Both the position numbers and the translations under genes were made by a program. The notes under the pieces were generated by a model. It saw only the letters and a list, made by a program, of their open reading frames with translations. It was not told the origin of the DNA and ran no database searches. DNA of 64,000 bases from Nocardioides marmorisolisilvae. Lineage in GTDB: Bacteria; Actinomycetota; Actinomycetes; Propionibacteriales; Nocardioidaceae. Every line of letters begins with the position of its first letter. The stretch's first letter is position 1. Of the stretch, positions 23,786 through 37,307 are shown one piece after another. The DNA is taken from positions 1,922,001-1,986,000 of the forward strand of contig NZ_CP134227.1 of the NCBI RefSeq assembly GCF_031656915.1, written 5' to 3'.

Positions 23786-25321
23786 GTGAAGTCTGCCGAG
23801 GAGATCATGGAAATCTTGGATGCCTACGACCTGACTGGGTCGTTTCGTGATGCCGGTGAGTTGGCCGGCTGTTCGCACCACACGGTGAAGCACTACGTGG
23901 ACCGCCGCGCTGCCGGCGGGGAGCTGGACCAGACCGCAGCCCGGCTGCAGTTGATCGATGAGTACCTGCCCAAGGTCGAGGAGTGGGTCGAGCGGTCGTT
24001 CGGGAAGGTCCGTGCCGATGTCGCCCACGAGAAGCTCGTGGCGTTGGGCTACAAGGGTTCGGAACGCACCACACGCCGCGCGGTCGCTAAAGTCAAGGCG
24101 TCCTATCGCTCTGGTCGGGTGCGGGTGCACCGGCCCTGGGTCACCGAGCCGGGGATGTGGCTGCAGTACGACTACGGCGACGGCCCGGTCGTCGACGGCG
24201 TCAAGACGGTGCTGTTCGTGGCGTGGCTGGCGTGGTCGCGGTTCCGGGTCGTGCTGCCGTTGCGTGACAAGACGATGCCGTCCGTGTTCGCCGCGCTGGA
24301 CGTCACGTTCCGCCGACTCGGTGGAGTGCCGACCTACGTGCTGACCGACAACGAGAAGACCGTCACGGTCGAGCACATCGCCGGGATCCCGGTCAGGAAC
24401 CAGCAGTTGGTCACCTTCGCCGAGCACTACTCGGTCGTGGTGCACACCTGTGTGCCCGCGGATCCGGCGTCCAAGGGCGGCACCGAGGCGTCGGTGAAGA
24501 TCAGCAAGGCCGACCTCGTCCCCAAGGACACCAACCTGCGGGAGGAGTACGCGAGTTTCGCTGAGCTCGAGGCGGCCTGCGAGGCGTTCTGCGAGAAGGT
24601 CAACACCCGTGCCCACCGGACGACGAAGCGGCCGCCGATCGAGATGCTCGCCGAGGAACGAGCTCGGCTGCACCCCGTTCCGGCGCGAGCGCACACGGTC
24701 GCGTTCGGCACCACCCGCATGGTGCCGGCGAACACCCCGATGGTGATGTTCGAGTCCGGCCAGTACTCGGTCCCACACACCCTGCTCGGTGCAACAGTGT
24801 GGGTCCGCACCCACGGGGTCGGTGAGGACGAGTGGGTCGTCATCGTTCATGTCGGCGACGACGGTCCGATCGAGGTCGCCCGCCACCGTCGCGCCACGCC
24901 GGGAACGCCGAAGATCGATGACGGGCACTTCCCGCCCCAGCCGTCCGGCCCGCTGGACCGCCAGCCCCGAGCGAAGAACGCCGCGGAGTCGGAGTTCCTC
25001 GACCTGGGTGAGGGGGCCCGGCTGTGGTTGGTCGAGGCGGCTGCCGCGGGCACGCCGCGGATGCGGGTCAAGATGACCGAGGCGCTCGCGTTGGCCAAGT
25101 TGTTCGACCCCGTCGAGGTCGACTGGGCACTGGGCCACGCCGCGGTCCATGGCCGGTTCGCCGAGGCCGACCTCTCTTCGATCCTGGACCACCACGCCCG
25201 GCAGCCCGGCACAGGTGAGCATCGTGCCAGCGAGGACTCCTCGCTGACCCAGGGCACCGCCGCGTGGGCACGGCTCGGCCAGCGGTCCACCGCGGACGGC
25301 GACGGCGAGGTGACCCGATGA
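23786..25321 (+). CDS. istA: IS21 transposase IstA
   Basis: A 511-residue transposase. The N-terminal helix-turn-helix covers LTGSFRDAGELAGCSHHTVK. The integrase core begins at about residue 125 with the three acidic residues in WLQYDYGDG, VLTDNEKT and SKGGTEASV. GTG at 23786 follows GAGGAGGG. The stop overlaps the istB start in ATGA, giving the coupled istAB arrangement typical of the family. No interruption is visible. Confidence 0.94.
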   Translation: MKSAEEIMEILDAYDLTGSFRDAGELAGCSHHTVKHYVDRRAAGGELDQTAARLQLIDEYLPKVEEWVERSFGKVRADVAHEKLVALGYKGSERTTRRAVAKVKASYRSGRVRVHRPWVTEPGMWLQYDYGDGPVVDGVKTVLFVAWLAWSRFRVVLPLRDKTMPSVFAALDVTFRRLGGVPTYVLTDNEKTVTVEHIAGIPVRNQQLVTFAEHYSVVVHTCVPADPASKGGTEASVKISKADLVPKDTNLREEYASFAELEAACEAFCEKVNTRAHRTTKRPPIEMLAEERARLHPVPARAHTVAFGTTRMVPANTPMVMFESGQYSVPHTLLGATVWVRTHGVGEDEWVVIVHVGDDGPIEVARHRRATPGTPKIDDGHFPPQPSGPLDRQPRAKNAAESEFLDLGEGARLWLVEAAAAGTPRMRVKMTEALALAKLFDPVEVDWALGHAAVHGRFAEADLSSILDHHARQPGTGEHRASEDSSLTQGTAAWARLGQRSTADGDGEVTR

Positions 25322-26103
25322 CGACGAGGAGCCCCATCAGCACCGCGCCGCCGTTGCCGGTCGAGTTGGAGGAGCTGCTGCGCAAGCTGCGGCTGCCGCA
25401 CATCCGTCGCCACGCGCCCGAGGTGGTCGCGACCGCGAAGGCCCAACGCTGGGAGCCCGCCGAGGTCCTCAAGGCCCTGTTCGCTGAGGAGGTCGCCGGC
25501 CGGGAACGCTCCGCCTTGGCCACGAGGCGGGCGGCCGCAGGGTTCCCGACCGGCAAGACGTTCGATGCGTGGCAGCCCGAGATCTCCTCGATCCCGGCCC
25601 CGACCCAGCAGGCGCTGCGGACCTTGGAGTGGGTCCACCGGCGAGAGAACCTCGTGGTCTGCGGGCCATCCGGGACCGGGAAGACGTTCCTGCTCGAAGC
25701 GCTCGGACAACAAGCCGTCGAGCAGGGACTCAAGGTCGCCTGGTTCACCCTGGAAGACCTCGGCGTCCTGCTGCGCCGGCACCGTGCGGACGACACCGTC
25801 ACCAAGGCCATCGCCCGAATCCTGCGGGCCGACCTGGTCATCGTCGATGACATCGGGCTCCTGGCCGTCGCCGCCGACGCCGCCGAAGGCCTCTACCGCC
25901 TCGTCGACGCCGCCTATGAGAAGCGCTCGGTCGCGATCAGCTCGAACCTGCACCCGTCCGGGTTCGACGAGCTCATGCCCAAGACGCTGGCCACCGCCAC
26001 AGTCGACCGGCTGCTCCACCACGCCCACGTCTGCCAGACCAGCGGCGACAGCGTGCGCCTGACCCAGGCACTCGCCGGCCAGGGGGTGAGCCCGTTGAGC
26101 TGA
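25318..26103 (+). CDS. istB: IS21 helper ATPase IstB
   Basis: A 261-residue AAA+ ATPase related to DnaC that helps IstA choose the target. Walker A is CGPSGTGKTFLLEAL, Walker B is LVIVDDIGLLAV, and SSNLHPSGFDEL marks the sensor region. The ATG overlaps the istA stop by four bases. The gene ends about 125 bases before the right end of the element. Confidence 0.94.
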   Translation: MTTRSPISTAPPLPVELEELLRKLRLPHIRRHAPEVVATAKAQRWEPAEVLKALFAEEVAGRERSALATRRAAAGFPTGKTFDAWQPEISSIPAPTQQALRTLEWVHRRENLVVCGPSGTGKTFLLEALGQQAVEQGLKVAWFTLEDLGVLLRRHRADDTVTKAIARILRADLVIVDDIGLLAVAADAAEGLYRLVDAAYEKRSVAISSNLHPSGFDELMPKTLATATVDRLLHHAHVCQTSGDSVRLTQALAGQGVSPLS

Positions 26104-26229
26104 GCACCCCGGTCGGTGGTGGCCACCGCCCCCTTGGGCAGATCCCGTGGCCACCACCGGGCAGTTCTCGTGGCCGTCAGCGGGCAGGTTTCATGTCCGC
26201 CCCTGGGCAGTTCCTACTGTCCCTTGACA

Positions 26230-26235
26230 ACGGCA
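26230..26235. repeat. IS21 target duplication, right copy
   Basis: ACGGCA directly after the right end of IS21 (TTGACA) duplicates 23589-23594. The original gene frame resumes after it. Confidence 0.88.
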
Positions 26236-26427
26236 CAACTCGCGAAGGTTGGCTGCGCTTCGGAGATGCGAACGACGTGACCGCCTCCTTGGCTGCCGAA
26301 GTGGCGTCGCGGCTGGCCGCCGGCCGCGGCAGACCCGGCGTCTACACGCCCGCCGAGTTGTTCGGAACAGACCTCGCGGAGTCCTGCGGCGGCGTCTACT
26401 CACTCGTCACCGAGGACTCCTGACCAG

Positions 26428-26444
26428 CTGGCCGGACCGGCCAG
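26428..26444 (+). terminator. hairpin after the split oxidoreductase gene
   Basis: CTGGCCGG-A-CCGGCCAG is a perfect 8-bp stem with a one-base centre, starting four bases after the stop codon at 26423. It could end transcription of the gene; no T-run follows. Confidence 0.45.
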
Positions 26445-26450
26445 GCGTGC

Positions 26451-26620
26451 TCATGCGGACCTCAGCGGCGTGATGGCCTCAATCTGCTCGGATACACGAT
26501 CCTCAGCGGTTGTCCAGGTCGTGTTGGGTCTGCAGGTTGGGCCAGAACCGCGGACCCCACCTGCCGAGGCTTGCGGAGCGCGACACGCTCAGTTCGCGAA
26601 TCCAGCGAGCGCATCCGCTC
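26451..26620 (-). pseudogene. degraded HigA-type antitoxin remnant
   Basis: On the minus strand one frame reads PRFWPNLQTQHDLDN, the hallmark C-terminal stretch of HigA (XRE-type) antitoxins. The next frame continues AEDRVSEQIEAITPLRSA, the expected HigA ending, so a frameshift separates the two. A further frame upstream gives ERVALR, matching the ALRLAR block of the same family. No start codon, DNA-binding part or HigB toxin partner is present. The identification is by recalled family pattern and needs an alignment. Confidence 0.55.
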
Positions 26621-26807
26621 GCGCCGCCACAGCGCTAGACAGTGAAGCGGAACGATCACGCGGGATATCGGTGGTTGTTGGTCATCGCCGGTTGAGCCGG
26701 AAAACACGGTCTGACCTACGCAAACGCGTTCGCGAGACCGTTGGACGTCGTCGGCGATCGCCGGCCTCGGCTGGACTTCTTGCGGACTATTTGCGGACCG
26801 CTGGCCC
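26621..26807. other. non-coding stretch beside the island genes
   Basis: No gene is supported here. It contains the 11-base string TGAAGCGGAAC at 26643-26653, identical to part of the ychF attachment core, and two copies of TTGCGGAC near 26777-26800. The rest looks like decayed sequence. Confidence 0.35.
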
Positions 26808-27587
26808 TCAGTCATCGCCGTCCAGGTCGAGGATCTCGTTGGCGACCTCGGATGGGAAAAGCGTCGACCAGATGATCTCGCCCGAGCCAGGGTTCATCTC
26901 GGCCAGGGGTGACGGTTCGGGCTGCCAGTCTTCAGCCGCAACTCCGGGCACACAGTCGAGCAGCAACGCGAACATCCGCGGGTCCGGCACTCCCTCTGCA
27001 ATGATGGCCAGGTAGGCCTCGTGCCCGTTCTCTGCCCGGACGAGTGCCTTGATCCGATGGTCCCGGAACTCGGCGACCGCGAGCTGGCCCCTCTTCAGCG
27101 ACATCGCGACGAGCCGGATCACCATCCGCTTCATCTCGCGCCGCCACGCGACGGCCTGCTCTGCAGCGAGGCGCTTCCAGTCCCACTCGCCCGGGAGCAG
27201 GTGATCCGAGGAGACGGTCCTTCCCGTCGTGCACTCCCGCTGCACCGTGGCGTAGAAGTCGCGCTGGGCGCTGTCCGCTTGGCGCCTGCCAGCGGCGCCG
27301 ATCCACCACGCCCCTCGGCTCGGGCGGACCCATTCCGGGATGTCAGTGCCGCGGAGTTCGGTCACGGCGGCGCGATGGTCTCTGGTCTTGACCTTGAACC
27401 AGACGCGGTCGGTGAGCGCGACGACGCGCTCCGCTCCGCCTGCGGCCCGCTGTTCAGGGACCGCCTGGGCGCTAACGATGACCGGCTGGTCGATCTCTTC
27501 CAGGCAGACCCCGAGGTCCGGCGGCTCGAGCCCAAGATCACCGAGGCAGCGCTTCGTTGGGCGTACGCCGACCGGTTCCGAGATCAT
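26808..27587 (-). CDS. hypothetical protein of the accessory region
   Basis: A 259-residue soluble protein of unknown family. It contains the tryptophan-rich stretch GAWWIGAAGRRQADSAQRDFY and a helical basic block (WRREMKRMVIRLVAMSLKRG), and ends in an acidic tail. The true start may be later than 27587, since the first 55 residues look less protein-like than the rest and there is no clear ribosome site. It lies on the same strand as the toxin-antitoxin genes upstream, 52 bases after the next stop. Confidence 0.6.
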   Translation of the reverse strand: MISEPVGVRPTKRCLGDLGLEPPDLGVCLEEIDQPVIVSAQAVPEQRAAGGAERVVALTDRVWFKVKTRDHRAAVTELRGTDIPEWVRPSRGAWWIGAAGRRQADSAQRDFYATVQRECTTGRTVSSDHLLPGEWDWKRLAAEQAVAWRREMKRMVIRLVAMSLKRGQLAVAEFRDHRIKALVRAENGHEAYLAIIAEGVPDPRMFALLLDCVPGVAAEDWQPEPSPLAEMNPGSGEIIWSTLFPSEVANEILDLDGDD

Positions 27588-27639
27588 GCGGCGAATCTAG
27601 TGGCCGGGTCCGACGCTCCAACGGACGGCGATGTGTCGG

Positions 27640-27900
27640 CTACTTGGGCAGGCCGCCGAGGTCGTCGAGCTCTTCGGCGCTGAGGCCGGTCATGAGCGAC
27701 ACAGCAGCGGCGTCAGTGCCGTTGAGTTGGCCGAGTGCAGCCTTGATGCCGGCGTTGATCTCGTCGCGGTGGGCATCGATGTACTCACGCACGGCAGCAT
27801 CGACGACGTCCTTCTTCGAGCGGGACATGAAGTGAGCTGCATGCGAGACGAGTTCGTCGGTTGCAGCGTCGACCTTGATAGGGGCCGTAGCGGTAGCCAT
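27640..27900 (-). CDS. antitoxin-like small protein
   Basis: An 86-residue protein that starts MATATAPIKVDAATDELV and has a helix-rich middle (SRSKKDVVDAAVREYID), the pattern of ribbon-helix-helix-type antitoxins of the VapB/type II group. The acidic C-terminus (LSAEELDDLGGLPK) would be the toxin-binding arm. No toxin gene adjoins it downstream. Two inverted repeats just upstream of the ATG at 27900 (27919-27945 and 27944-27957) look like autoregulatory operators. Family assignment is by pattern. Confidence 0.65.
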   Translation of the reverse strand: MATATAPIKVDAATDELVSHAAHFMSRSKKDVVDAAVREYIDAHRDEINAGIKAALGQLNGTDAAAVSLMTGLSAEELDDLGGLPK

Positions 27901-27918
27901 GGCAGGGAAGCTCCTTGA

Positions 27919-27957
27919 CCTGAGGTGCCGGGTTTGAACCTCAGGTACCAAAGTACC
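27919..27957. promoter_or_regulatory. operator-like inverted repeats before the antitoxin-like gene
   Basis: CCTGAGGT (27919-27926) pairs with ACCTCAGG (27938-27945), and GGTAC (27944-27948) pairs with GTACC (27953-27957). The two repeats touch and lie 19-57 bases upstream of the ATG at 27900. Antitoxins of this size usually repress their own promoter through such sites. Confidence 0.5.
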
Positions 27958-27976
27958 AACCGACACAAGTTCCGGT

Positions 27977-28477
27977 CTACTTCGAATAGGGTTCGGCGAC
28001 CTGCGAAGACACGAACTCGGGCAACGTCATCCACGGAACGCCCACACTTATGCAGGCGTCGGGGATCCTGGGCTTCCGGTCGCTGTTTGCCGGTGTCTCT
28101 TGGGTGACGACGGTGCCGCCACGAGCAAGGGCGAGGCCGACGACGAACGGGTCGGCTGAGTTCCGGTTCGCGCCGTGCTGGGCCATCAGCCGTGGGCAGG
28201 CCGCCAGCACCTCCTTGGTGCCCTTCTGGATGTCGTGCGCCAGTGCCACGAACAGCCCTCGGTGGACACGGATCCACTTCGCGACATCGTCGTCCTTCCT
28301 CCGGATCTCCCTCTTGACCTCGTCGACGGCGAGGATCATTCCGTCGTCGATCAACTGGCCGATCCTGTCCCAGAGGGCCTCGAAGGTCGGCAGCCGGTAG
28401 AGGTCGCGACGGCCGTTGATGAACGCGCTGGTGTCGAAGGAGTAGAACGGAAACGGTAGGAGACCCGGTTCAGTCAC
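27977..28477 (-). CDS. DUF4411 PIN-like toxin
   Basis: A 166-residue protein of the DUF4411 family, predicted PIN-domain ribonucleases. The first acidic residue is in FYSFDTSAFINGRRD, the second in AVDEVKREI, and NSADPFVVGLALA carries the third. PIN enzymes cut RNA with bound magnesium. The ATG overlaps the stop of the upstream gene in ATGA. In typical loci DUF4411 sits behind an XRE/ImmA metallopeptidase gene; here that partner is only a C-terminal remnant (28474-28881). Confidence 0.83.
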   Translation of the reverse strand: MTEPGLLPFPFYSFDTSAFINGRRDLYRLPTFEALWDRIGQLIDDGMILAVDEVKREIRRKDDDVAKWIRVHRGLFVALAHDIQKGTKEVLAACPRLMAQHGANRNSADPFVVGLALARGGTVVTQETPANSDRKPRIPDACISVGVPWMTLPEFVSSQVAEPYSK

Positions 28478-28881
28478 AGCCTGGCCTTCTCAGCCAGGCG
28501 GGAGATCTGGTTGACCTTGACGTCGCGGTAGGCCGCGGCGGTCGTCGAGTCGATGACGTTCCGGCTGTGAGCGTTGGTGACGGTCCGGACATAGCCCCTG
28601 CCGAGGTCACGAGCCTTGGTCACGTAGAAGTTGCCGCCACTGGACCGGTTGCCGCGCAGGTCGCGCTCGGAACGGCCCTCACGGAAGTCGCGGTAGAACT
28701 CGATCGGGACGCGGTCGAGGGTCACCAGGCGACGCAGGAACGATTCGACGCTCACGCCGAACGGTCGGGCCGCGTCGATCAACTCCTGCATGCTCCACTC
28801 GTGGCCCGGCGGCCGTTTGGCGACCAACGTGTTGTCGAGGACGTCCGCTGCGGGCATCAGGATCTCGGCGGCGAGAGCCAT
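28474..28881 (-). CDS. ImmA/IrrE-like protein, C-terminal part only
   Basis: The 135 residues begin MALAAEILMPAADVLDN, which matches the segment immediately after the HExxH helices in ImmA/IrrE metallopeptidases, and continue with the usual C-terminal domain. The helix-turn-helix and the HExxH zinc motif are missing. The frame can be extended back to a GTG at 28908, which lies inside the attachment repeat. ATG 28881 is preferred because GGAGG lies four to five bases upstream. The truncation point coincides with the attachment repeat at 28904, so DNA exchange there probably removed the 5' half. It still overlaps the DUF4411 gene in the normal way. Confidence 0.7.
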   Translation of the reverse strand: MALAAEILMPAADVLDNTLVAKRPPGHEWSMQELIDAARPFGVSVESFLRRLVTLDRVPIEFYRDFREGRSERDLRGNRSSGGNFYVTKARDLGRGYVRTVTNAHSRNVIDSTTAAAYRDVKVNQISRLAEKARL

Positions 28882-28903
28882 CTGACCTCCGGAAGCGTCT
28901 CGA

Positions 28904-28923
28904 TTCACACGTTGAAGCGGAAC
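28904..28923. repeat. attachment repeat, distal copy (att)
   Basis: TTCACACGTTGAAGCGGAAC is identical to 32891-32910, where it is the 3' end of ychF. The two copies enclose a region with an integrase remnant next to the ychF copy. This is the expected att pair of an integrative element. Confidence 0.82.
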
Positions 28924-29264
28924 CTGTCCCGCGTGAACGGTAGGAGATGGTGAGAGTTGGCACTAGGCGATCTACCTGCGGTTATGCGGATCATGACGTT
29001 GGCGGCAATCGATTCGCTACGAATGTAGCGGGGCATTCCTGGGGCAAACGCCCCAGTTCATCGTGACTGAGAAGCGATCACCCCGACCGGCATCAACCGT
29101 GACCGTCACCCCGGTGCGCACGCGCCTGCTGGCCTTCACCACTCTGGAGCTGGACCGCATAGGAAACGAAACGCATCCAGGCCCGCGACGTTGCCCCCTC
29201 CCACACGCCGATCCGCCATCGGATCACTGTGGCACCGATCGGGCGACCGTGGCATAATTGACTT
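28924..29264. other. intergenic region between att repeat and vapBC
   Basis: No gene is supported in these 341 bases. A 7-bp hairpin with AAAC loop (CTGGGGC/GCCCCAG, 29039-29056) is present. A promoter-like CATAAT lies at 29253-29258, seven to twelve bases before the vapB start. The rest shows no clear repeats. Confidence 0.4.
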
Positions 29265-29265
29265 A
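29253..29265 (+). promoter_or_regulatory. -10 element for leaderless vapB
   Basis: CATAAT at 29253-29258 is close to the TATAAT consensus and ends six bases before the ATG at 29265. No ribosome site is visible, so transcription would start at or near the ATG. Leaderless messages are common in actinobacteria. A -35 element is not obvious. Confidence 0.45.
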
Positions 29266-29510
29266 TGGATGCCATGTTGACGCTGGGACAGCAAGGGCGG
29301 CTGGTGATCCCCGCCGAGGTTCGCAGCGCTTTGGGACTTTCCACTGGAGAGCAGTTGCACCTACGGATCGTCGGTCACAGCCTTGTCCTCGAGCGCCAGC
29401 AGGACGCCGCCGCGGAGCTTCGAGGTCTGGCCTCCGGGGTGCCGAGGACACGGTCACTTGTCAATGAGCTTCTCCATGAACGCCGCCTCGCAGCTGCTGC
29501 CGGCGAATGA
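29265..29510 (+). CDS. vapB: VapB-like antitoxin, AbrB/MazE fold
   Basis: An 81-residue antitoxin. The swapped-hairpin DNA-binding motif is [20 protein letters not shown] followed by [10 protein letters not shown], the SpoVT/AbrB signature. The C-terminal helical tail should cover the toxin active site. A later ATG at 29274 is possible. It overlaps vapC by four bases (ATGA), so the pair is coupled. It probably represses its own promoter. Confidence 0.87.
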
Positions 29511-29887
29511 CGGTTCTGGACGCCTCGGCGGTGTTGGCCCTCGTCCACGACGAACCCGGCGCGGAGATCGTCGCAGAGGCGCTGCCGTCTGCATCGTTGG
29601 GAGCGGCGAACCTTGCCGAGGTGATCGGCAAGCTGATTGATGCCGAGGTTGAGGTCGGCCACGTCCGGGGGCTGCTCACCGCCGCAGGTGTGGTCATCGA
29701 ACCCGTCACCGAAGCAGACGCAGAGCTGGCAGGTGCGATGCGGTCGCTCGACGGAGGCAAACTTCTGTCCCTGGGCGATCGCTGCTGCTTGGCGCTGACT
29801 GCACGCAGCTCGCCTGCCGACGTGCTGACCGCCGACCGCGCTTGGGCAGATCTGGACCTGCCAGTGCGGGTACGCCTGATCCGGTAG
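29507..29887 (+). CDS. vapC: VapC toxin, PIN-domain ribonuclease
   Basis: A 126-residue PIN toxin. The acidic residues are Asp5 ([19 protein letters not shown]), Glu in NLAEVIGKL, Asp in [13 protein letters not shown] and Asp in VLTADRAW, a complete set. VapC proteins cleave tRNA or rRNA when not bound by VapB. The gene appears intact and is the second of the vapBC pair. Confidence 0.9.
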
Positions 29888-29989
29888 GCGATCCTGCTGT
29901 GGTCTAGCGACAGCGAGGATCGCGGCAGATCTGGTTGGCCACAGCGCACGCCATCTGTTCGTCGCCCGCATGATCGCGCAGTCTGCGAG

Positions 29990-31196
29990 TCATGTAACGC
30001 AAACGGTCCGCATGGGTGACAGGCCAACGATCATCGCCGAAACCGCGGACAAAGCCGCCACCCCGATCAGAGTCAGACCCTCGTCGAACAGGGTCAGCGC
30101 TAGCCCGCCGAGGACGGCGCCGAGTGCTCCCGCCGAACGGTTCGCCGAGCGTCTCGTGGCATTCGCCCGGCCGAGCAATCGATCGGGAGTGACCATCTGC
30201 CAATAGCCCGTGTCGTTGGCGTTCTCGACGCCCATCGCGAGGCCCTGGAGCACTAACGCTCCGCCAAGCAGCACCACACCGTTTGGTACGTGGGGTGCCG
30301 CGGCGACCAAGATCCATGCAACCGGGTGGATCGATCGCGTCGCGATGATCGCCGGTCCGGTGCCGAGACGGCGTCCGACCATGAGCGCGACGGTTGCGCC
30401 GACGAGGCTGGCGACCCCACTGGACGCGACCAGCAGTCCGAAAACCAACCCCGACAGACCCATCTGGCGCAGTACGACGACTGTGAGCGCCGTGAACCCT
30501 GCCGCGTTGGCGACGAACCAGACGTGGGTCGACACTGCCAATGGAGCCAGGGTGGGGTGCCGGTAGGTCCATCGCACCCCCTCACTGATCTCGCGTCGTA
30601 GGCGCCGCTCACCGGCGTGGTCGGGAGGTGACTCGTCAACGCGAAGTCCGGTGTTCAGCACGGCATCCACGAGATAGCTGACCGCATCGACCGCGATGGC
30701 GACGGGCGCACCGAGCAGACCCACCAGGCCGCCACCGAGTGCAGGGCCGAGGGTCTGCGCCGCAGCGTCGCTCTGGTCGAGCCGGGCGTTGGCCACGACC
30801 AGTCGATCGCGAGGGACCAGGTGCGGCAGCAGCGACTGCGTGGCAGCGAATGCGAAGACCGAGAACGCGCCAAACGCCAACAGCAGCACGACGAGCGTCC
30901 ATACCTCCAGCGCCCCGAATGCCCACAGCACCGGTAACGCCCCCCAGCGTGGTCGCCCGTCCGAGGCTGCTCCACACCAGGATCCGCTGCCGCCGCCAGC
31001 GATCGGCGTAGACGCCGGCAACGAGTCCAAGGACCGCGTAGGGCACGAACTGGGCGGCGTTGACGACACCAACGGAGAACGACGATGCGTGCAGTTTCTG
31101 GATGACCAGGACCGGCATTGCCACAGTCGTGACCGAGGTGCCGAACGAACTGATCGTCGCGGCCGCCCAGTAGCGGCCGAACGGGGCGTCCGCCAC
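29990..31196 (-). pseudogene. MFS transporter gene with one frameshift
   Basis: The first part (from GTG 31196, with GGAG six bases upstream) encodes FGRYWAAATISSFGTSVTTV and the first membrane helices up to YADRWRRQRILVWSSLGRAT. The protein then continues in another frame (ALPVLWAFGALEVWTLVVLL) to the stop at 29990. The break lies in a run of six C (30940-30945, plus strand); one base fewer would restore a continuous frame of about 400 residues. The family is the EntS-like group of drug or siderophore exporters. A sequencing error in the run cannot be excluded. Confidence 0.8.
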
Positions 31197-31204
31197 TGTC
31201 ATCT

Positions 31205-31449
31205 CCTGCCGCCGGTGGTTGGCTCTCATCCCATCACAGTCATTGACAGCACCGGGCTCCGGTGCGCTGCGAGTCGACCCGCCATCAGCCTGAGGTGACG
31301 TCCCGCAAGGCGAACGACGTACGGGGACGTCGCATCCAGTTCGCTGACGTCCGGCTGGAACGCCCGAAGTTTCCGGAAGGGGATCCGCTTGCGGCAACTG
31401 ACCAAATCGGCGCAGCAGGGGCGTGCAGGTGCTGGCTTGGCTCAACGGC
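31205..31449. other. gap between MFS pseudogene and methyltransferase remnant
   Basis: No gene is supported. It contains an inverted repeat GACGTCCC (31297-31304) and GGGACGTC (31324-31331), which lies upstream of the MFS gene and might be an operator. Otherwise nothing recognisable. Confidence 0.35.
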
Positions 31450-32016
31450 CTACTGGTTGGCCTTCACCGCTGAGACGACCACGAAGGGCGGCAAGTGTTG
31501 CAGCAGTGCAGCGTGTGGCGGTGCGTCGGAATCTGCAAGGGCCTCGGAGGGCAACGTGGGTTCTTCGATGCGTTCGAACCAGAGACCGTGCCGGCGGAGC
31601 GCATTCAAGTAGTCGCTGAGGCGCCGGTGAAAGTCAGTGGCCACGGGCCTTGGAACCGGTCGAATCTGGATGTAGTTGCTGATGCACAGTCGGCCTTCGC
31701 TTCGCCACTCGTTGTGGGCAGCGCTAACGATGGGATGGTCGATCGAGAAGATCAACCGCCCTCCGGGACGAAGCGCGCTCGCGCAGACCTCGAACGCCGA
31801 CTCCCAGTCGTCGATCGACAACAGCACCATATTGGCCACGACGGCGTCGAACTGGCGGTCAAGCCGCGCGGTGGTCAGGTCCGCCTGGATCAACTCGATC
31901 CCCTGCTGCAATTGCTCTTCCATACGAACGGAGTGACCGAAGAGCGGTTCGGCCGGCTCGATCGACGTCACCAGTGCGCCCCGGCGCGCCAACAGTCGGC
32001 TCACCCTGAAGGCCAT
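31450..32016 (-). pseudogene. class I SAM methyltransferase, 5' truncated
   Basis: From Met at 32016 the 188 residues read MAFRVSRLLARRGALVTSIE, then EQGIELIQADLTTA-like and FDAVVANMVLLSIDDW, GGRLIFSIDHPI, which are motifs post-I to III of class I methyltransferases. The first motif with its GxGxG is absent, because the gene is cut at about 32020-32045 where integrase sequence begins on the other strand. The open frame continues upstream only through foreign sequence. Catalysis is unlikely without the SAM-binding loop. Confidence 0.7.
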
Positions 32017-32874
32017 GTCACTCGCGGCACGCGACGCGACGTTTAGGGATCTCGAGTTGCGGAAGGTTCGGCCCTCCCACGTCGAGGCCTGGGTGAAAGA
32101 GATGTCCATGAGGGGCCTCGCCCCCGGGACAGTCAAGACTCGGTTCGTCAACGTCCGATCCGTATTCCGGGCCGCGATCCGCGACAAGGTGATCGCCGGC
32201 GACCCGACCACCGGCATCCGGCTCCCCGCCAGCGCAAGCGTGAAGCCTCGATGGAGATACCGACACCGGCACAGGTGCGGACGATCATCGATGCCGCCGA
32301 TGAGCGGTTCGTTGCGTTCATCGCTGTCTGTGCGTTCGCGGGGCTGCGGCTCGGCGAGGCCGCCGCCTTGAAGCTCGATGACGTCGACTTCCTGCGTCGT
32401 CATCTCCGCGTCCGGCGTCAGGCCCAACGCGCAGGGGCCGGCAAGGTGGAGATCCGACTCCCGAAGTACGGGTCCGAGCGTGACGTTCCGCCCCCAGATG
32501 ACCTGTTAGCGGTACTTTCGCGCCACCTCGAGCTCGGCCATCGCGGCGACTGGTTGTTCGCAGGCGGCGAGGAGAACCCGCCGCACCAGAACACGATCGG
32601 CTACTGGTGGCGCAAGACACTCGTCGCGGCAGGCCAAGAAGGCATCCGTCTGCACGATCTCCGGCACTTCTACGCTTCTGGACTGATCGCAGCCGGGTGT
32701 GACGTCGTGACCGTCCAGCGGGCACTCGGGCACGCGAAGGCGAGCACCACCTTGGAGACGTACAGCCATCTCTGGCCCTCTGCTGAGGACAAGACCAGGA
32801 AGGCCGCGGCCACGCTCGCCCAGGAGGTCCTGGCCCCTGGCGGGGGCAAGAACGGGGCAACAGGAGACAATTAG
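32015..32874 (+). pseudogene. tyrosine integrase, 5' truncated and frameshifted
   Basis: The first frame gives the core-binding domain end (RPSHVEAWVKEMSMRGLAPG, NVRSVFRAAIRDKVIAGDP). At about 32226-32250 the frame is lost by one base, and the catalytic domain continues in the next frame from MEIPTPAQVRTIIDAAD. It has the catalytic Arg in AGLRLGEAAAL, LHDLRHFYASGL, GHAKASTTLETYSH, with the Tyr nucleophile in TLETYSHLW. The N-terminal arm-binding domain is missing. The stop at 32874 is 17 bases from the ychF att copy, the usual place for an integrase. Confidence 0.85.
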
Positions 32875-32890
32875 GCGTCTGAACTGGGCT

Positions 32891-32910
32891 TTCACACGTT
32901 GAAGCGGAAC
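32891..32910. repeat. attachment repeat, ychF copy (att)
   Basis: Identical to 28904-28923. On the minus strand it encodes the last residues (FRFNV) and stop codon of ychF, so integration at this point preserves the gene. Confidence 0.82.
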
Positions 32911-33968
32911 TCCACGACGTCACCGTCGGCCATCACGTAGTCCTTGCCCTCCATCCGGACCCGGCCAGCCTCTTTGGCCTTCTGCATGGAGCCGGCGGCG
33001 ACCAGATCGTCGAAGGAGACGATCTCAGCCTTGATGAAGCCCTTCTGGAAGTCGGTGTGGATCACGCCGGCGGCCTCGGGGGCGGTCGCGCCCTTGCGGA
33101 TGGTCCAGGCGCGGGACTCCTTGGGGCCCGCGGTCAGATAGGTCTGCAGCCCGAGGGTCTCGAAGCCGACGCGGGCAAGCACGTCCAGGCCGGGCTCGTC
33201 GACGCCCATCTCGTGAAGCATCTCCCGCGCCTCGTCCTCGTCGTCCAGCTCGACCAGCTCGGACTCGAACTTGGCGTCGAGGAAGATCGCCTCCGCCGGC
33301 GCGACGATGTCGCGCATCCGCTGCTTGAGCTCCTCGTCGGCCAGCTCGTCGGCGTCGCAGTTGAAGACGTAGAGGTACGGCTTCGCGGTGAGCAGCGAGA
33401 GCTCCCGGATCAGGTCCCGGTCGATCGACGTAGCGATGATCGGCGTACCGGCCTCCAACGTCTCCTTGGCCTCGCGTACGGCGGCCGCCTTGGCCTGCGT
33501 CTCCTTCTTGATCTTCGCCTCCTTCTCCAGCCGGGGAAGCGCATTGTCGACCGTCTGCAGGTCGGCGAGGATCATCTCGGTCTGGATCGTGGAGATGTCC
33601 GAGGCTGGGTCGACCTTGCCGTCGACGTGGGTGACGTCCTCGTCGCGGAACACCCGGGTCACCTGGCAGATCGCGGCGGACTCGCGGATATGGGCGAGGA
33701 ACTTGTTGCCCAGGCCCTCGCCCTTGGATGCGCCGGCGACGATGCCGGCGATGTCGACGAACTCGACGGTCGCCGGGATCACCTTCGCGGACCCGAAGAT
33801 GCCGGCGAGGGTGGTGAGCCGCTCGTCGGGGACGCCGACGACGCCGACGTTCGGCTCGATCGTCGCGAACGGGTAGTTCGCTGCGAGCACGTCGTTCTTG
33901 GTCAGGGCGTTGAAGAGCGTCGACTTGCCCGCATTGGGGAGTCCCACGATTCCGATGGTGAGGGCCAC
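32892..33968 (-). CDS. ychF: redox-regulated ATPase YchF (Obg family)
   Basis: A 358-residue GTPase-fold protein that hydrolyses ATP and binds ribosomes. The P-loop is GIVGLPNAGKSTLFNAL; the altered specificity motif reads VFNCDADE in place of NKxD; a TGS domain follows at the C-terminus, ending in VVEFRFNV. Start is GTG at 33968. The gene end is the attachment site for the element at 28904-32910. It belongs to the conserved core. Confidence 0.96.
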   Translation of the reverse strand: MALTIGIVGLPNAGKSTLFNALTKNDVLAANYPFATIEPNVGVVGVPDERLTTLAGIFGSAKVIPATVEFVDIAGIVAGASKGEGLGNKFLAHIRESAAICQVTRVFRDEDVTHVDGKVDPASDISTIQTEMILADLQTVDNALPRLEKEAKIKKETQAKAAAVREAKETLEAGTPIIATSIDRDLIRELSLLTAKPYLYVFNCDADELADEELKQRMRDIVAPAEAIFLDAKFESELVELDDEDEAREMLHEMGVDEPGLDVLARVGFETLGLQTYLTAGPKESRAWTIRKGATAPEAAGVIHTDFQKGFIKAEIVSFDDLVAAGSMQKAKEAGRVRMEGKDYVMADGDVVEFRFNV

Positions 33969-34019: not shown

Positions 34020-35117
34020 TCAGGCCGGGATGCCGGCCCGCCCCGGGTCGAGGGAGCCCAGCTGCGACTCGGACTCGACCAGGCCCTCATCGCTGGGGGC
34101 CTCACCGGACCCAAAGACGCGCTGCTCCTGGCGAGCGCGGAGGTCGAGGTGGGCACGGGCCGGGACGTCGTACCCGTAGCGGGCCTGGGCCTCGCGCGGC
34201 GTCATCGTGACCTGCGAGCGGGCCGGGATGCCCAACAGCGGTACGGCGGCGATCGGCACCGTCGACGGAGAGATGATCCGCATGATGGTCAGTTGCACCC
34301 GCGGCAGCCGGTGCACGACGCGGTACGCCGGCCGCGACAGTACGGTGACCACCCAGTCGACGATCCGGGGCTGGCGCAGTCCGAACATTCGACGCATCCA
34401 CCCGGGATAGGTCGCGATCGTCTGCATCCGCACGGCGCGCGCGAGCAGCCGACCGGCGGGCCGCTGCCACCACGGCATGTCCTCGGGGAAGATCACGTCA
34501 CCGCGCAGCAAAAACGCCGTCATGGACTGGGCTGCCTCGGAGCCCGCCAGCCGCGGCCGCCACTGCTCGAAGTAGGCACGGACCTCCTCGCGGCTGCGCG
34601 GCACGTCGGCGGGGTCGATCGTCTGCAGCTCGGCCGACCGCGCGCACTCGAGCCAGTACTGCGCCTCCTCCTCGGGCGGGAGCGGTCCCGGCCCGAACCT
34701 CTCGTAGCAGTAGAGGATCGAGTGCCACGCGGTCATGTGGATCCACAGCTGCGAGTCCGACGCGTTCGCGTCGTACCGCCGGCCGGTCACCGGATCCGTG
34801 CCGATCGCCTTCGAGTGCACCTTGACCAGGACGTCCGCGGCCTTGGCCGTGGTCGCGGTGTCACCGAAGACCATCAGGGCGAAGTAGCGCAGGGTGCGGT
34901 CGTAGCGCGAGCGCGGACGCTCCCGGACTCCCCCCGACGCCTCGACCGCCGCGATCAGGTGCGGGTCGAGCTCCTCGACGGTCACCGAGCGCTGGAAGCC
35001 GGTGAGCACCGAGGTCGGGTAGCCCCAGACCTTCCACGTGACCGATCCGGGCCCGAAGAACCCGTTGTCGGCGGGCGCCTCGAACTGCTCGGCGGACCTG
35101 CGTCGGACCTTCGCCAT
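34020..35117 (-). CDS. oxygenase MpaB family protein
   Basis: A 365-residue helical protein of the MpaB/Lcp (DUF2236) group, haem or di-iron oxygenases. The typical blocks are GPGSVTWKVWGYPTSVLTGF near the start, HSKAIGTDPVTGRRYDANAS and QLWIHMTAWHSIL, where His and Trp are conserved. The substrate is unknown. ATG 35117 is divergent from the TetR gene at 35185; two palindromic operators lie between. The same arrangement is repeated by the pair at 35825-37307. Confidence 0.85.
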   Translation of the reverse strand: MAKVRRRSAEQFEAPADNGFFGPGSVTWKVWGYPTSVLTGFQRSVTVEELDPHLIAAVEASGGVRERPRSRYDRTLRYFALMVFGDTATTAKAADVLVKVHSKAIGTDPVTGRRYDANASDSQLWIHMTAWHSILYCYERFGPGPLPPEEEAQYWLECARSAELQTIDPADVPRSREEVRAYFEQWRPRLAGSEAAQSMTAFLLRGDVIFPEDMPWWQRPAGRLLARAVRMQTIATYPGWMRRMFGLRQPRIVDWVVTVLSRPAYRVVHRLPRVQLTIMRIISPSTVPIAAVPLLGIPARSQVTMTPREAQARYGYDVPARAHLDLRARQEQRVFGSGEAPSDEGLVESESQLGSLDPGRAGIPA

Positions 35118-35128
35118 GACGTCACTTC

Positions 35129-35142
35129 CTACAGTCGTGTAG
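35129..35142. promoter_or_regulatory. predicted TetR operator (copy 1)
   Basis: CTACAGTCGTGTAG matches the perfect palindrome at 35159-35172 at 12 of 14 bases. It lies 12 bases upstream of the MpaB gene start at 35117 and should control it. Confidence 0.7.
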
Positions 35143-35158
35143 TAATGTGAGAGCGAAT

Positions 35159-35172
35159 CTACACATGTGTAG
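35159..35172. promoter_or_regulatory. predicted TetR operator (copy 2)
   Basis: CTACACATGTGTAG is a perfect 14-bp palindrome centred 30 bases from the first copy, on the same face of the DNA. It overlaps a -10-like TAGTAAT and lies 13 bases before the TetR gene start at 35185, so it probably mediates autorepression. Confidence 0.78.
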
Positions 35173-35184
35173 TAATCTTGGGAA

Positions 35185-35832
35185 GTGCCCACCTCGACGA
35201 GCCCGGCCCGGCGCCCCTACGCCAAGCGGATGCCGTTGGAGGAGCGTCGCGAGCAACTCCTCGACGCCGCGATCCGGCTGATCGCCCGCGACGGGTACGA
35301 CGCCGTCTCTGTCGACGCGATCGCCCGCGAGGCCGGTGTCACCCGGCCGGTGGTCTATGCGGCGTACGGCGGCCTCGGCACGCTGCTGCACACCCTCCTC
35401 GACCGATCGCAGCAGCGCGCCCTCGCCCAGCTCGACGAGGTGCTCTCGACGGGCACCGACCTCGCCGACCCCGAGGCGCTCCTCGTCGACGTGGTGCGTG
35501 GGCTGATCGCGATGGTGCAGCGCGATCCCGACCTATGGCGCCCCATCCTCGCCGCGCCGAGCGGGACGCCGCGCGAGGTCCGCGAGCGGGTGGAGGCGGA
35601 CCGGGAGCGGATCCGCGCCCGGATCGCCCAACTGGTCGACCTCGGGACGGCCGTCTGGGGCGGTCCGGTCGTCGACAGCGAGGTGGTCTCCCACCTGCTG
35701 CTGGCCACCGCCGAGCACTTCGGCCGGATCCTGCTCGACGAGCCGCAGCGCTTCGAGCCCGAGCGCATCATCGAGGCGGTGCGACTGCTGGTGGTGGGGC
35801 TGCGGCCGCGCCGGGTCAGAGGAGTCAGATGA
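35185..35832 (+). CDS. TetR-family regulator
   Basis: A 215-residue repressor with the DNA-binding domain at about residues 18-64 (REQLLDAAIRLIARDGYDAV, AREAGVTRPVVYAAYGG). The C-terminal domain is of the common TetR type with no ligand known. GTG at 35185 is the start. It is divergent from an MpaB-type oxygenase gene, with two palindromes in the gap, and ends eight bases inside the convergent second MpaB gene. Confidence 0.93.
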   Translation: MPTSTSPARRPYAKRMPLEERREQLLDAAIRLIARDGYDAVSVDAIAREAGVTRPVVYAAYGGLGTLLHTLLDRSQQRALAQLDEVLSTGTDLADPEALLVDVVRGLIAMVQRDPDLWRPILAAPSGTPREVRERVEADRERIRARIAQLVDLGTAVWGGPVVDSEVVSHLLLATAEHFGRILLDEPQRFEPERIIEAVRLLVVGLRPRRVRGVR

Positions 35833-36655
35833 CCCGTCGGCCGCTGCGGATCCGCCAGCGCACCTCGGCCATCGCGACGCGGGCGGGCAGCCGACGCATC
35901 GCCCGCGGCATCCGCGGGTAGACGGCGCGAACGATCCTCCAGACGAGGTCGTAGCGGCGCTGGTCGCGGGCCGACCAGGTGAACCCGAGGACGTCGCGGG
36001 CATGCGGCGACAGGTTGCCGCGCGTGATCAGGCTCATCAGCGGGAGCACCGGCCGCACGAGCCACGTGGCCTCCCTGGTGGAGAGCAGGCCGGCGGCGTA
36101 GCGGCGGATCTGCTCGTCGGAGCGGAAGCCGGCCTCCTTCCGAGCCCACCACTGCTCGAACTCGGCGCGGGTCGGCGGCCACATGTCCTCGCGCACCTGC
36201 AGCGCCGTGCCGTAGATCCAGCCCTCGCGGTAGAGCCGCTCCGCGGTGTCAGGGTCCAGCGGGCCGAAGACCTTCTCGTACATCTGCAGGCCCACCTCAG
36301 CGAGCGTGGCGGCCACCCACAGCTGGAGCTCTGGGTCGAAGGCCGAGTAGCCCTCACCGCGGATCGGCACGTGCGCCCGGTTGACCATCCGGGCGATCGC
36401 CTGCCTCTCGGCGTCCGTGCCCAGGCCCATCACGTAGACGTAGCTCAGCGTGGTCCGCAGCCTGTCGAAGGGACGATCCATCGTCGTGGAGTGCTCGGCG
36501 ACCCCCTTGCCGACTCCCCACTCCGCGAGCTGGAGCATCACCGCCGACCCGGAGCCGAGCAGCAGCGCCGGCTCGTGCAGCAGGTCAGCGATGCCGAGCC
36601 GCCCCCGCGCCGGGTCGGGAGCAGCCTGGGGCGCGGGCTCGGTCGTCGCGGTCAT
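35825..36655 (-). CDS. oxygenase MpaB family protein, second copy
   Basis: A 276-residue relative of the MpaB group. Conserved blocks include LLHEPALLLGSGSAVMLQLA near the start, VNRAHVPIRGEGYSAFDPEL, and QLWVAATLAEVGLQMY. It is shorter than the first copy and differs clearly, so it is not a recent duplicate. ATG 36655 is divergent from the TetR gene at 36702. The substrate is unknown. Confidence 0.85.
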   Translation of the reverse strand: MTATTEPAPQAAPDPARGRLGIADLLHEPALLLGSGSAVMLQLAEWGVGKGVAEHSTTMDRPFDRLRTTLSYVYVMGLGTDAERQAIARMVNRAHVPIRGEGYSAFDPELQLWVAATLAEVGLQMYEKVFGPLDPDTAERLYREGWIYGTALQVREDMWPPTRAEFEQWWARKEAGFRSDEQIRRYAAGLLSTREATWLVRPVLPLMSLITRGNLSPHARDVLGFTWSARDQRRYDLVWRIVRAVYPRMPRAMRRLPARVAMAEVRWRIRSGRRVI

Positions 36656-36677
36656 TGCGACATTGAAACAGTCTTTG

Positions 36678-36691
36678 TTGCAATCGTGCAA
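36678..36691. promoter_or_regulatory. predicted operator before the second TetR gene
   Basis: TTGCAATCGTGCAA has 5-bp perfect arms (TTGCA/TGCAA). It sits in the 46-base gap between the divergent MpaB and TetR genes, 10 bases upstream of the TetR start. It also overlaps a longer imperfect repeat (ATTG...CAAT). Confidence 0.6.
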
Positions 36692-36701
36692 TACTTCGCG
36701 G

Positions 36702-37307
36702 ATGCAGGAGCACCCGGTCGAGGCGATCCTGGACGCCGCCCGCGACCAGTTCGTCGCCGCCGGCGTACGCCGCAGCAGTGCCGACGACATCGCCCGGCGG
36801 GCAGGGGTCAACCGGGCCACGATCTATCGCCGGGTCGGCACCAAGGAGGAGATCGTCCGCGCGACGTACGTCCACGAGGCGCAGCGGGTGCTGGCCGCGA
36901 TCGAGCAGGCGATCGGGCCGGTGCCCGACCCGGGGCCGGCGTCCGCTGACTTCGACGCCGCCGAGTACGTCGCCGCCTTCTTCACCGTCACCATCACCGC
37001 GTTGCGCGAGAACAAGCTGCTGCGGCAGCTGCTCGACGTCGACCCCGACGAGACCCTGGCCGGGCTGACCCTGCGCGCCGGCGACGTGATCGCGCTGGCC
37101 AGCACGCTCGCCGCGGATCGGATGCGCCGGCTGCGGGCGTACGTCGGCAACACCCACGTCGACGACATCGACGACCTCGCCGGCACCTTCGCCCGGATCG
37201 CCCAGTCGCTGCTGCTCACCCCGGACGCACCACCACGGCTGACCACCGAGGCCAGCATGCGCGACTACGCCCGCCGGGTGATCGCACCGATGGTGCTGGG
37301 CCGGTAG
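36702..37307 (+). CDS. TetR-family regulator
   Basis: A 201-residue repressor. The helix-turn-helix spans AILDAARDQFVAAGVRRSSA and RRAGVNRATIYRRVGTKEEI. It forms a divergon with the MpaB-type gene at 35825-36655. Its closeness to the first pair suggests that two related regulatory modules have been placed side by side. It ends 22 bases before xthA. Confidence 0.93.
   Translation: MQEHPVEAILDAARDQFVAAGVRRSSADDIARRAGVNRATIYRRVGTKEEIVRATYVHEAQRVLAAIEQAIGPVPDPGPASADFDAAEYVAAFFTVTITALRENKLLRQLLDVDPDETLAGLTLRAGDVIALASTLAADRMRRLRAYVGNTHVDDIDDLAGTFARIAQSLLLTPDAPPRLTTEASMRDYARRVIAPMVLGR

Follow-up and report, generated by a model that had tools for sequence, protein, structure and literature searches.

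Integrative elements are frequently found in protein-coding genes: in the TIGER/Islander resource, 43.4% of the islands lie in coding sequences and 33.8% in tRNA or tmRNA genes (PMC12424338). For streptococcal integrative and conjugative elements (ICEs), integrative and mobilizable elements (IMEs) and cis-mobilizable elements (CIMEs), the available portions of two studies present both the use of protein-gene 3' ends as attachment (att) sites and the tandem accretion of CIMEs as established (PMC5704250, PMC7563491), and pneumococcal prophages that insert upstream of ychF are described in the accessible parts of three others (PMC8637289, PMC10383233, PMC6375853). Here we describe the ychF locus in a 64-kb window of Nocardioides marmorisolisilvae (the whole stretch of 64,000 nucleotides that was analyzed; contig NZ_CP134227.1, positions 1,922,001 to 1,986,000). 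A clade of tyrosine integrases very probably uses the 3' end of the widely conserved gene ychF as its bacterial attachment site (attB), and two tandem elements, A and B, are very probably inserted there. An initial annotation, made from the sequence of the window alone, had already proposed the ychF end as an attachment site, for which the relatives described below give strong support; its remark that a protein gene is a less usual target does not agree with the island counts given above.

Two islands in a row at the ychF end

The target gene is intact (32892..33968, minus strand; YchF-GTPase_C in Pfam, E 3.9e-39), in line with the initial annotation, in which its reading frame was kept whole. 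The 20-bp sequence TTCACACGTTGAAGCGGAAC is present on the plus strand at 28904-28923 and at 32891-32910, and sequence and Pfam agree that the latter copy consists of the last codons and the stop of ychF (...EFRFNV, stop). No further match was found in the window at up to 3 mismatches and none in 100 shuffles, and as the genome (4,228,226 bp searched) holds these two copies only, the perfect repeat noticed initially is not scattered over unrelated places. Within the repeat lies a 15-bp core, ACGTTGAAGCGGAAC. Allowing no more than 2 mismatches, a core was found in 261 of the 341 genomes of the family; a near-copy, TCCACACGTTGAGGCGGAAC, recurs in eight genomes.

Two islands stand in a row at the ychF end, A outside and B inside, and three cores on the plus strand delimit them. 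The first core (32891..32910) is the att site formed by the ychF 3' end, the second (28904..28923) is an att site shared by A (on its right) and B (on its left), and the third, the degenerate GCTAGACAGTGAAGCGGAAC at 26634..26653, was recognized by comparison with relatives as the outer (left) att of A; it has 2 mismatches within the 15-bp core, and its position relative to the adjoining arm matches that of distal cores in relatives. Element A thus covers 26654..28903 (with its outer core from 26634) and element B 28924..32890. The left arm of A (26651..26807, plus strand) is of the type that we call I and contains probable integrase arm sites, including TCTGACCT and TTGCGGACTATTTGCGGACCGC. A hidden Markov model (HMM) built from 42 stretches right of non-ychF cores in relatives, with the window excluded from building, matched exactly this interval (E 6.7e-35, 114.6 bits; second-best match E 0.063), and the type-I model scores the arm at 143 bits. 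This was further supported by an 84-86% identity of the ~170 bp after the 26634 core to sequence just inside a core in three relatives (G102, G123 and G133; G, C and L numbers denote genomes, contigs and loci).

The right ends of the two elements differ. That of A, CTGACCTCCGGAAGCGTCTCGA at 28882..28903 (plus strand), was recognized by likeness to relatives, as 28878-28923 is 80-85% identical to the ychF-side right end and core of several of them, and by the motif CTGACCTC, which sits at -27 from the 15-bp core at 28904. The right end of B (32879..32890, plus strand), found by motif search, has CTGAACTG at -17 from the core and belongs to subtype IIb. Since the motif stands at -27 before the core at 28904 but at -17 before the core at 32891, two tandem elements are indicated, and because type-I ends lie to its left, 28904 is a junction and not an outer boundary. 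The initial annotation had described one element bounded by the two repeats; its left repeat is the A/B junction, and the outer end lies at 26634.

Next to the ychF copy of the repeat, B carries the remnant of a tyrosine integrase of the ychF-linked clade (32003..32874, plus strand; catalytic part PF00589, E 1.2e-23), as had been noticed before. Measured against the 371-372 aa of intact relatives, it has lost residues 1-77, and what is left is split between two frames (78-158 and 158-364) with the switch near 32225; in the Pfam search the SAM-like part preceding the catalytic part likewise fell in a separate frame. The residues R, HxxR, H and Y, which we take to be the catalytic ones, are conserved. 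The stop codon ends at 32874, which leaves 16 bases, not the 17 first counted, before the repeat at 32891. With the integron integrase model TIGR02249 the protein scores 48 bits, against a cut-off of 265.

The comparison gave no sign that the region is ancestral content of the genus: in 18 genus-mate regions there was no match to 22.7-32.8 kb of the window (ORFs, open reading frames, of >=80 aa; E 1e-12), so that an objection foreseen in the initial annotation was not borne out there. The only genus-mate matches in the variable stretch are at 12.2-13.5 kb, at 14.0-15.0 kb and in a TetR-like gene at 22.0-22.6 kb.

The integrase clade and its units in relatives

Matches to the window integrase are present in 128 of the 341 family genomes (E 1e-20). 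Integrase and core positions were compared over 85 rows, with a dividing line at 60% identity that was drawn after the data were seen. At >=60% identity, 41 of 52 rows have a core on their own contig and strand at a distance of 60 kb or less, in 20 of these 41 with the core 0-300 bp past the integrase; the remaining 11 comprise eight on contigs without a listed core and three far off. At 50-60% identity only 2 of 33 rows are within 60 kb of a same-strand core. Seven rows at >=50% identity were omitted, five being second gene pieces and two short fragments on contigs without a listed core (G272:C516, G065:C24). In G143, whose listed core is the distal one, ychF and a core with 1 mismatch lie right past the integrase, and a type-II arm is found at the distal core. 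A tree of 48 sequences (the window's, 29 from the 31 linked loci and 18 from the 20 unlinked ones, these being the loci with usable sequence) places all 30 core-linked integrases, the window's included, on one side of a branch with support of 97/88, found in 98% of the bootstrap trees, and divides them into two subclades of 15.

Four of the 20 unlinked loci (L153, L160, L161 and L165) have a tRNA-Tyr gene in the same 3.3-3.4-kb stretch, and all four fall outside the ychF-linked clade. These sister integrases come from the same family and are related to the ychF-linked clade, but they have a tRNA gene as neighbour, which suggests that the target has switched between a tRNA gene and a protein gene. 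Near named relatives, no tRNA gene was seen in the 52 loci examined.

The link to ychF reaches outside the family as well. When named genomes were scanned with the integrase alignment, 255 relatives came up, of which the best 80 were kept, and in 47 of these 80 loci the 3' end of a convergent ychF is no more than 400 bp away from the integrase. In the other best-80 loci ychF lies at 1.5-4.7 kb (8) or is not within the fetched stretch (25). The 47 include Terrabacter, Pedococcus, Phycicoccus, Paenarthrobacter, Arthrobacter, Kocuria, Microtetraspora, Nocardiopsis, Actinomadura, Geodermatophilus, Blastococcus, Modestobacter, Amycolatopsis, Saccharopolyspora, Micromonospora, Rhodococcus, Microbacterium, Cellulomonas and a metagenome-assembled genome of Acidimicrobiaceae. 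Among viral-contig loci ychF was present in 1 of 22, a 45-kb IMG/VR contig (L247) where ychF with a core lies 0.9 kb past a 57%-identical integrase, possibly within a prophage.

Same-strand pairs of cores on one contig, at most 60 kb apart, were counted by eye from listed positions (the set of 159 genomes at up to 2 mismatches) in 22 of 159, 13 of 80 and 14 of 80 genomes, in sum 49 of 319, which is a lower bound as the pairs of G074, G076 and G094 are visible only at looser matching. Opposite-strand pairs within 60 kb were not seen by eye in any of the 319. In 44 of the 49 genomes with pairs the inner core is the ychF end; in one of the 49 (G133) the pair is on a contig other than that of ychF. 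The window's arrangement also recurs: the order in G206 is an AbiE unit followed by ychF, and in G148 an AbiE unit, a 5.3-kb type-II element and ychF, which is the order in the window, with the two AbiE units 92.6% identical over 1,244 bp. A whole 7.96-kb type-II element is common to G118 and G211 at 97.9% identity, vs 93.0% for their ychF.

From the fetched regions 45 units could be delimited at 38 sites (four genomes, G041, G043, G128 and G133, fetched in two stretches, are left out of this table, and L107 may be two units). Fourteen have a clade integrase, one of them as a 69-residue piece, 20 have recognizable ends and no integrase, A included, and 11 have neither. Altogether 31 units lack the clade integrase and 34, with A and B among them, have arms, the clade integrase or both; as the regions fetched favoured genus mates and genomes with pairs, and one batch short pairs, the integrase-less share is not a frequency. 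With up to 1 mismatch, the motif CTGACCTG stands at -27 in 18, at -28 in 3 and at -17 in 6 of 43 relatives' units and is absent from 16, against a background of 58 in 64,000 plus-strand positions of the window. Arm type follows the integrase tree: units with an integrase of subclade 1, which is the window's, have a type-II left arm in 8 of 8 cases, the window aside (103-122 bits), and those of subclade 2 type I in 4 of 4, three weakly (20-123 bits).

Cargo families were scanned for 32 of 59 and 83 of 224 listed ORFs (first 25 families; PADLOC on the 83). Those of integrase-less units include PIN, Phd, Fic/Doc, ParE, AbiEii/AbiEi, type I restriction and helicase-type proteins; ordinary enzymes, for instance an aldehyde dehydrogenase, occur there too. 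Eight armless small units beside ychF (0.43-2.95 kb) often consist of a single gene or a single toxin-antitoxin pair, and their distal core retains ~6-40 bp of extra ychF sequence.

The 15-bp core is identical between both copies in 31 of 38 ychF-proximal units, while 22 of the 38 show differences in the four bases outside it, the wobble base of the last codon and the stop, and 14 of the 38 in the stop codon itself. All six relatives' -17 units (L118, L130, L132, L135, L143 and L146) and L126 have TAA at ychF and TGA at the distal copy, so that the element seems to replace the ychF stop; B of the window, though at -17, has TGA at both copies. These sequences are most simply explained by a crossover that falls within the 15 bp and by a stop codon that comes from the element. 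We propose that the last codons and stop of ychF are attB for this clade, that recombination would take place inside the core, and that an entering element, bringing its own wobble base and stop, would leave ychF whole. At this ychF insertion would have occurred at least twice. B would have entered between A and ychF and decayed later, its integrase becoming truncated and frameshifted and its left arm being lost. The order of insertions, the recombination chemistry and the place of the crossover are inferred.

Integrase-less units and alternative explanations

The integrase-less units are best illustrated by one AbiEii protein that occurs in 23 of the 341 genomes (E 1e-30). In 16 genomes of five genus groups it lies 0.7 to ~15 kb from the ychF 3' end, on the same contig and in one orientation; in six it is elsewhere (G076, G126, G198, G219, G242 and G335), and the contigs of G284 leave its place undecidable. 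At ychF the cassette is mostly integrase-less. A type-I arm, whole or partial, was found in 13 of 15 fetched ychF-side AbiE loci vs 0 of 4 fetched loci elsewhere. Six loci agree at 87-94% identity over the 1.4-1.5 kb that adjoin the distal core on its inner side, with a seventh (L140) sharing two short parts of this stretch, and the outer 3 kb of these loci have no mutual similarity (plus strand, pieces >150 bp). In 26 of 28 pairs, namely those with a ychF value among 70 listed rows, the cassettes are more alike than the ychF genes. From these comparisons we read the AbiE cassette as having reached ychF repeatedly by horizontal arrival. A rule that AbiE units never carry the integrase had to be given up, since in G310 the AbiE genes are in a 16.1-kb unit with an integrase, and the integrase-less forms may accordingly be deletion derivatives.

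In element A no integrase was found by search and no transfer gene among its three ORFs scanned with Pfam. A keeps att sites without genes for integration or transfer and is in this sense CIME-like. Its ORFs are all on the minus strand: a 259-aa frame without Pfam or NCBIfam match (26808..27587), a DUF4411 gene (27977..28477; PF14367, E 2.5e-34) and, adjoining it, a probable antitoxin partner without family match (28474..28908), which as listed overlaps the core, a start near 28882 being likelier. From our knowledge of PIN-like families we take the DUF4411 protein to be the toxin of a toxin-antitoxin-like pair. No more than 2 of the 340 other genomes of the family contain a relative of it (E 1e-15). 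The DUF4411 gene was also considered as a ychF-bound cassette and rejected as such, as both relatives' 3.5-kb loci lack a core and a type-I arm. With relatives so rare, and without core or arm, A is not shown to spread. We infer that A either arose by deletion or travelled as the passenger of an integrase supplied from elsewhere.

How such units came to lie at ychF can be explained in two ways. The likelier one is that units like A are decayed leftovers (CIMEs) fixed in place, rather than movers by their own ends. The outer core and right end of A are degenerate, its DUF4411 gene was found at no other core, the AbiE genes of G310 still share a unit with an integrase, and 16 of 18 genomes with armed integrase-less units contain no clade integrase at E 1e-20 (G022 and G338 have 59-61% identical relatives, which the tree places outside the clade). 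Against this, the AbiE unit is seen at ychF in 16 genomes that represent five genus groups; its outer flanks, as far as compared, are unrelated, and its identity is mostly above that of ychF. A more speculative explanation, which we hold to be possible and distinctly less probable, is a cassette system: small cassettes with conserved ends and toxin-antitoxin or defence cargo would be cut out and put in again in trans by passing ychF-clade integrases, forming arrays at this one housekeeping gene across actinobacteria, in the manner of pdif modules but with a gene-end site.

Doubts about two tandem elements at a ychF attB come from several sides, and the following observations weigh against it. 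The right-end HMM gave only E 0.1 for A, though at the exact expected place. No left arm of B was recognized by the general, type-I or type-II models, and its sole trace, the degenerate CTACCTGC at +48, close to the offset expected, is of a quality that 84 of 6,390 window positions also reach. In relatives, the inner core lies 0.8 kb past ychF in G022 and 12-13 kb past it in G043 and G214, perhaps with more units between. G041 (L297, L110-L111) has a same-strand pair of cores, spaced 40 kb and enclosing a clade integrase, at 1 Mb from ychF; a rearrangement or a second attachment site could account for this, and the statement that every core pair is at ychF is ruled out by it. The evidence from empty sites is mixed. 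A near-empty one, which speaks for the reading, is seen in G009, where ychF and a further ~105 bp are followed by sequence that over 1,395 bp is 95% identical to the flank beyond a 16.8-kb element in G046, but the final 77-105 bp before the core align poorly, and G009 is therefore an empty site at gene, not at base, resolution. G005 complicates the comparison, as its copy of this flank (95% over 1,403 bp) is situated between the two perfect cores; on the inner side of the flank, 423 bp away, is a degenerate core (3 mismatches) whose arm signal is weak (12.8 bits), so that G005 may hold two units. Finally, the window's outer flank (26130-26633) matches in its own genome only and in none of 23 genus mates, which means that the window's own empty site is not shown. 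The initial annotation had looked to relatives both for other elements with the core at ychF and for this flank directly beside an uninterrupted ychF; the former were found (44 of the 49 genomes with pairs), the latter was not.

Some of these observations would suit a single composite element from 26634 to 32890 whose middle core arose by internal duplication, as there is only one integrase remnant and B is without a left arm. We consider this improbable, because the spacings of the right ends differ (-27 vs -17) and G272 likewise has a type-I unit on the outer side of a type-II one, as does G148 when judged by right end and AbiE genes. Slightly less probable still is a single element from 28904 to 32910 with ordinary chromosome to its left: the perfect repeat pair and the integrase at one end are what one would expect of it, but it leaves a full type-I end at 26634-26807 (E 6.7e-35) and the type-I-like right end abutting 28904 without explanation. 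An origin of the duplicated ychF ends by homologous exchange or end duplication, without any integrase, could apply to the 11 of 45 units lacking arms and integrase, eight of which keep the extra ~6-40 bp of ychF distally, and is most unlikely in general, given the arms and/or clade integrase of the other 34, A and B included. Two tandem elements at a ychF attB thus stay our preferred reading.

Beside its integrase, B contains a VapBC-like pair, formed by an AbrB/MazE-type antitoxin gene (29265..29510, plus strand; PF04014, E 1.2e-6; TIGR01439, E 3.3e-8) and a gene for a PIN-domain, VapC-like toxin (29507..29887, plus strand; PF01850, E 2.9e-9), a major facilitator superfamily (MFS) transporter gene apparently in two frames (29990..31072, minus strand, by reading with a 5' part to ~31200; PF07690, E 1.1e-19 from profile position 77) and, by family scans, a methyltransferase remnant apparently without its N-terminus (31450..32040, minus strand). 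Among the six ORFs of B scanned with Pfam there were no conjugation, relaxase or phage structural genes, B being decayed. Outside A, window positions 23786-26103 hold an istA/istB-like pair (IS21 type, by reading) after an apparently cut-short oxidoreductase gene, and 100 bp from 26130 recur identically at G000:C1:1076927, so that a second copy is probable. On the other side of ychF (34020-36820), two similar-looking genes with TetR-like neighbours were seen by reading.

Comparison with known systems

Pdif modules are small units, often with toxin-antitoxin genes, that are flanked by short recombination sites and have no recombinase of their own, XerC/XerD being used instead. The integrase-less ychF units resemble them as small recombinase-less units with toxin-antitoxin genes, and differ in going with a separate integrase clade and a gene-end core. 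In the source, as far as it is available, pdif modules are an Acinetobacter system (PMC12907356).

The streptococcal elements offer a further comparison. There, as here, a housekeeping gene has at its 3' end a decayed att-flanked unit next to another element, and in the available part of the sources the arrangement 'CIME-IME-target gene' tops the table of composites (PMC5704250, PMC7563491). The streptococcal targets named in those parts, rpmG, rpsI, fda and rplL, are different ones and belong to another phylum. No conjugation or relaxase genes are present among the scanned ORFs of A and B. For the pneumococcal prophages PPH005 and phiBM6001.4 the accessible text places the phage attachment site next to ychF, as here (PMC8637289, PMC10383233); that of PPH005 is given between the DUF951 and YchF genes and has a core unrelated to the window's, and that of phiBM6001.4 is stated to be upstream of ychF. 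In the literature searched, which mostly did not cover subscription papers, no report of the ychF 3' end as an attachment site in actinobacteria was found.

As the ychF 3' end varies little, one short site would be available in very many actinobacteria. The ychF-linked integrases are candidate tools for gene-sparing site-specific insertion, and the ychF end is a predictable spot to look for defence and toxin-antitoxin genes. The TIGER/Islander pipeline requires an integrase and at least 2 kb (PMC12424338), and many small ychF units are for this reason invisible to such pipelines. Taken together, the kind of system is already known, both as a protein-gene attB and as CIME accretion, and what sets this one apart is the unusually wide use of one protein-gene site.

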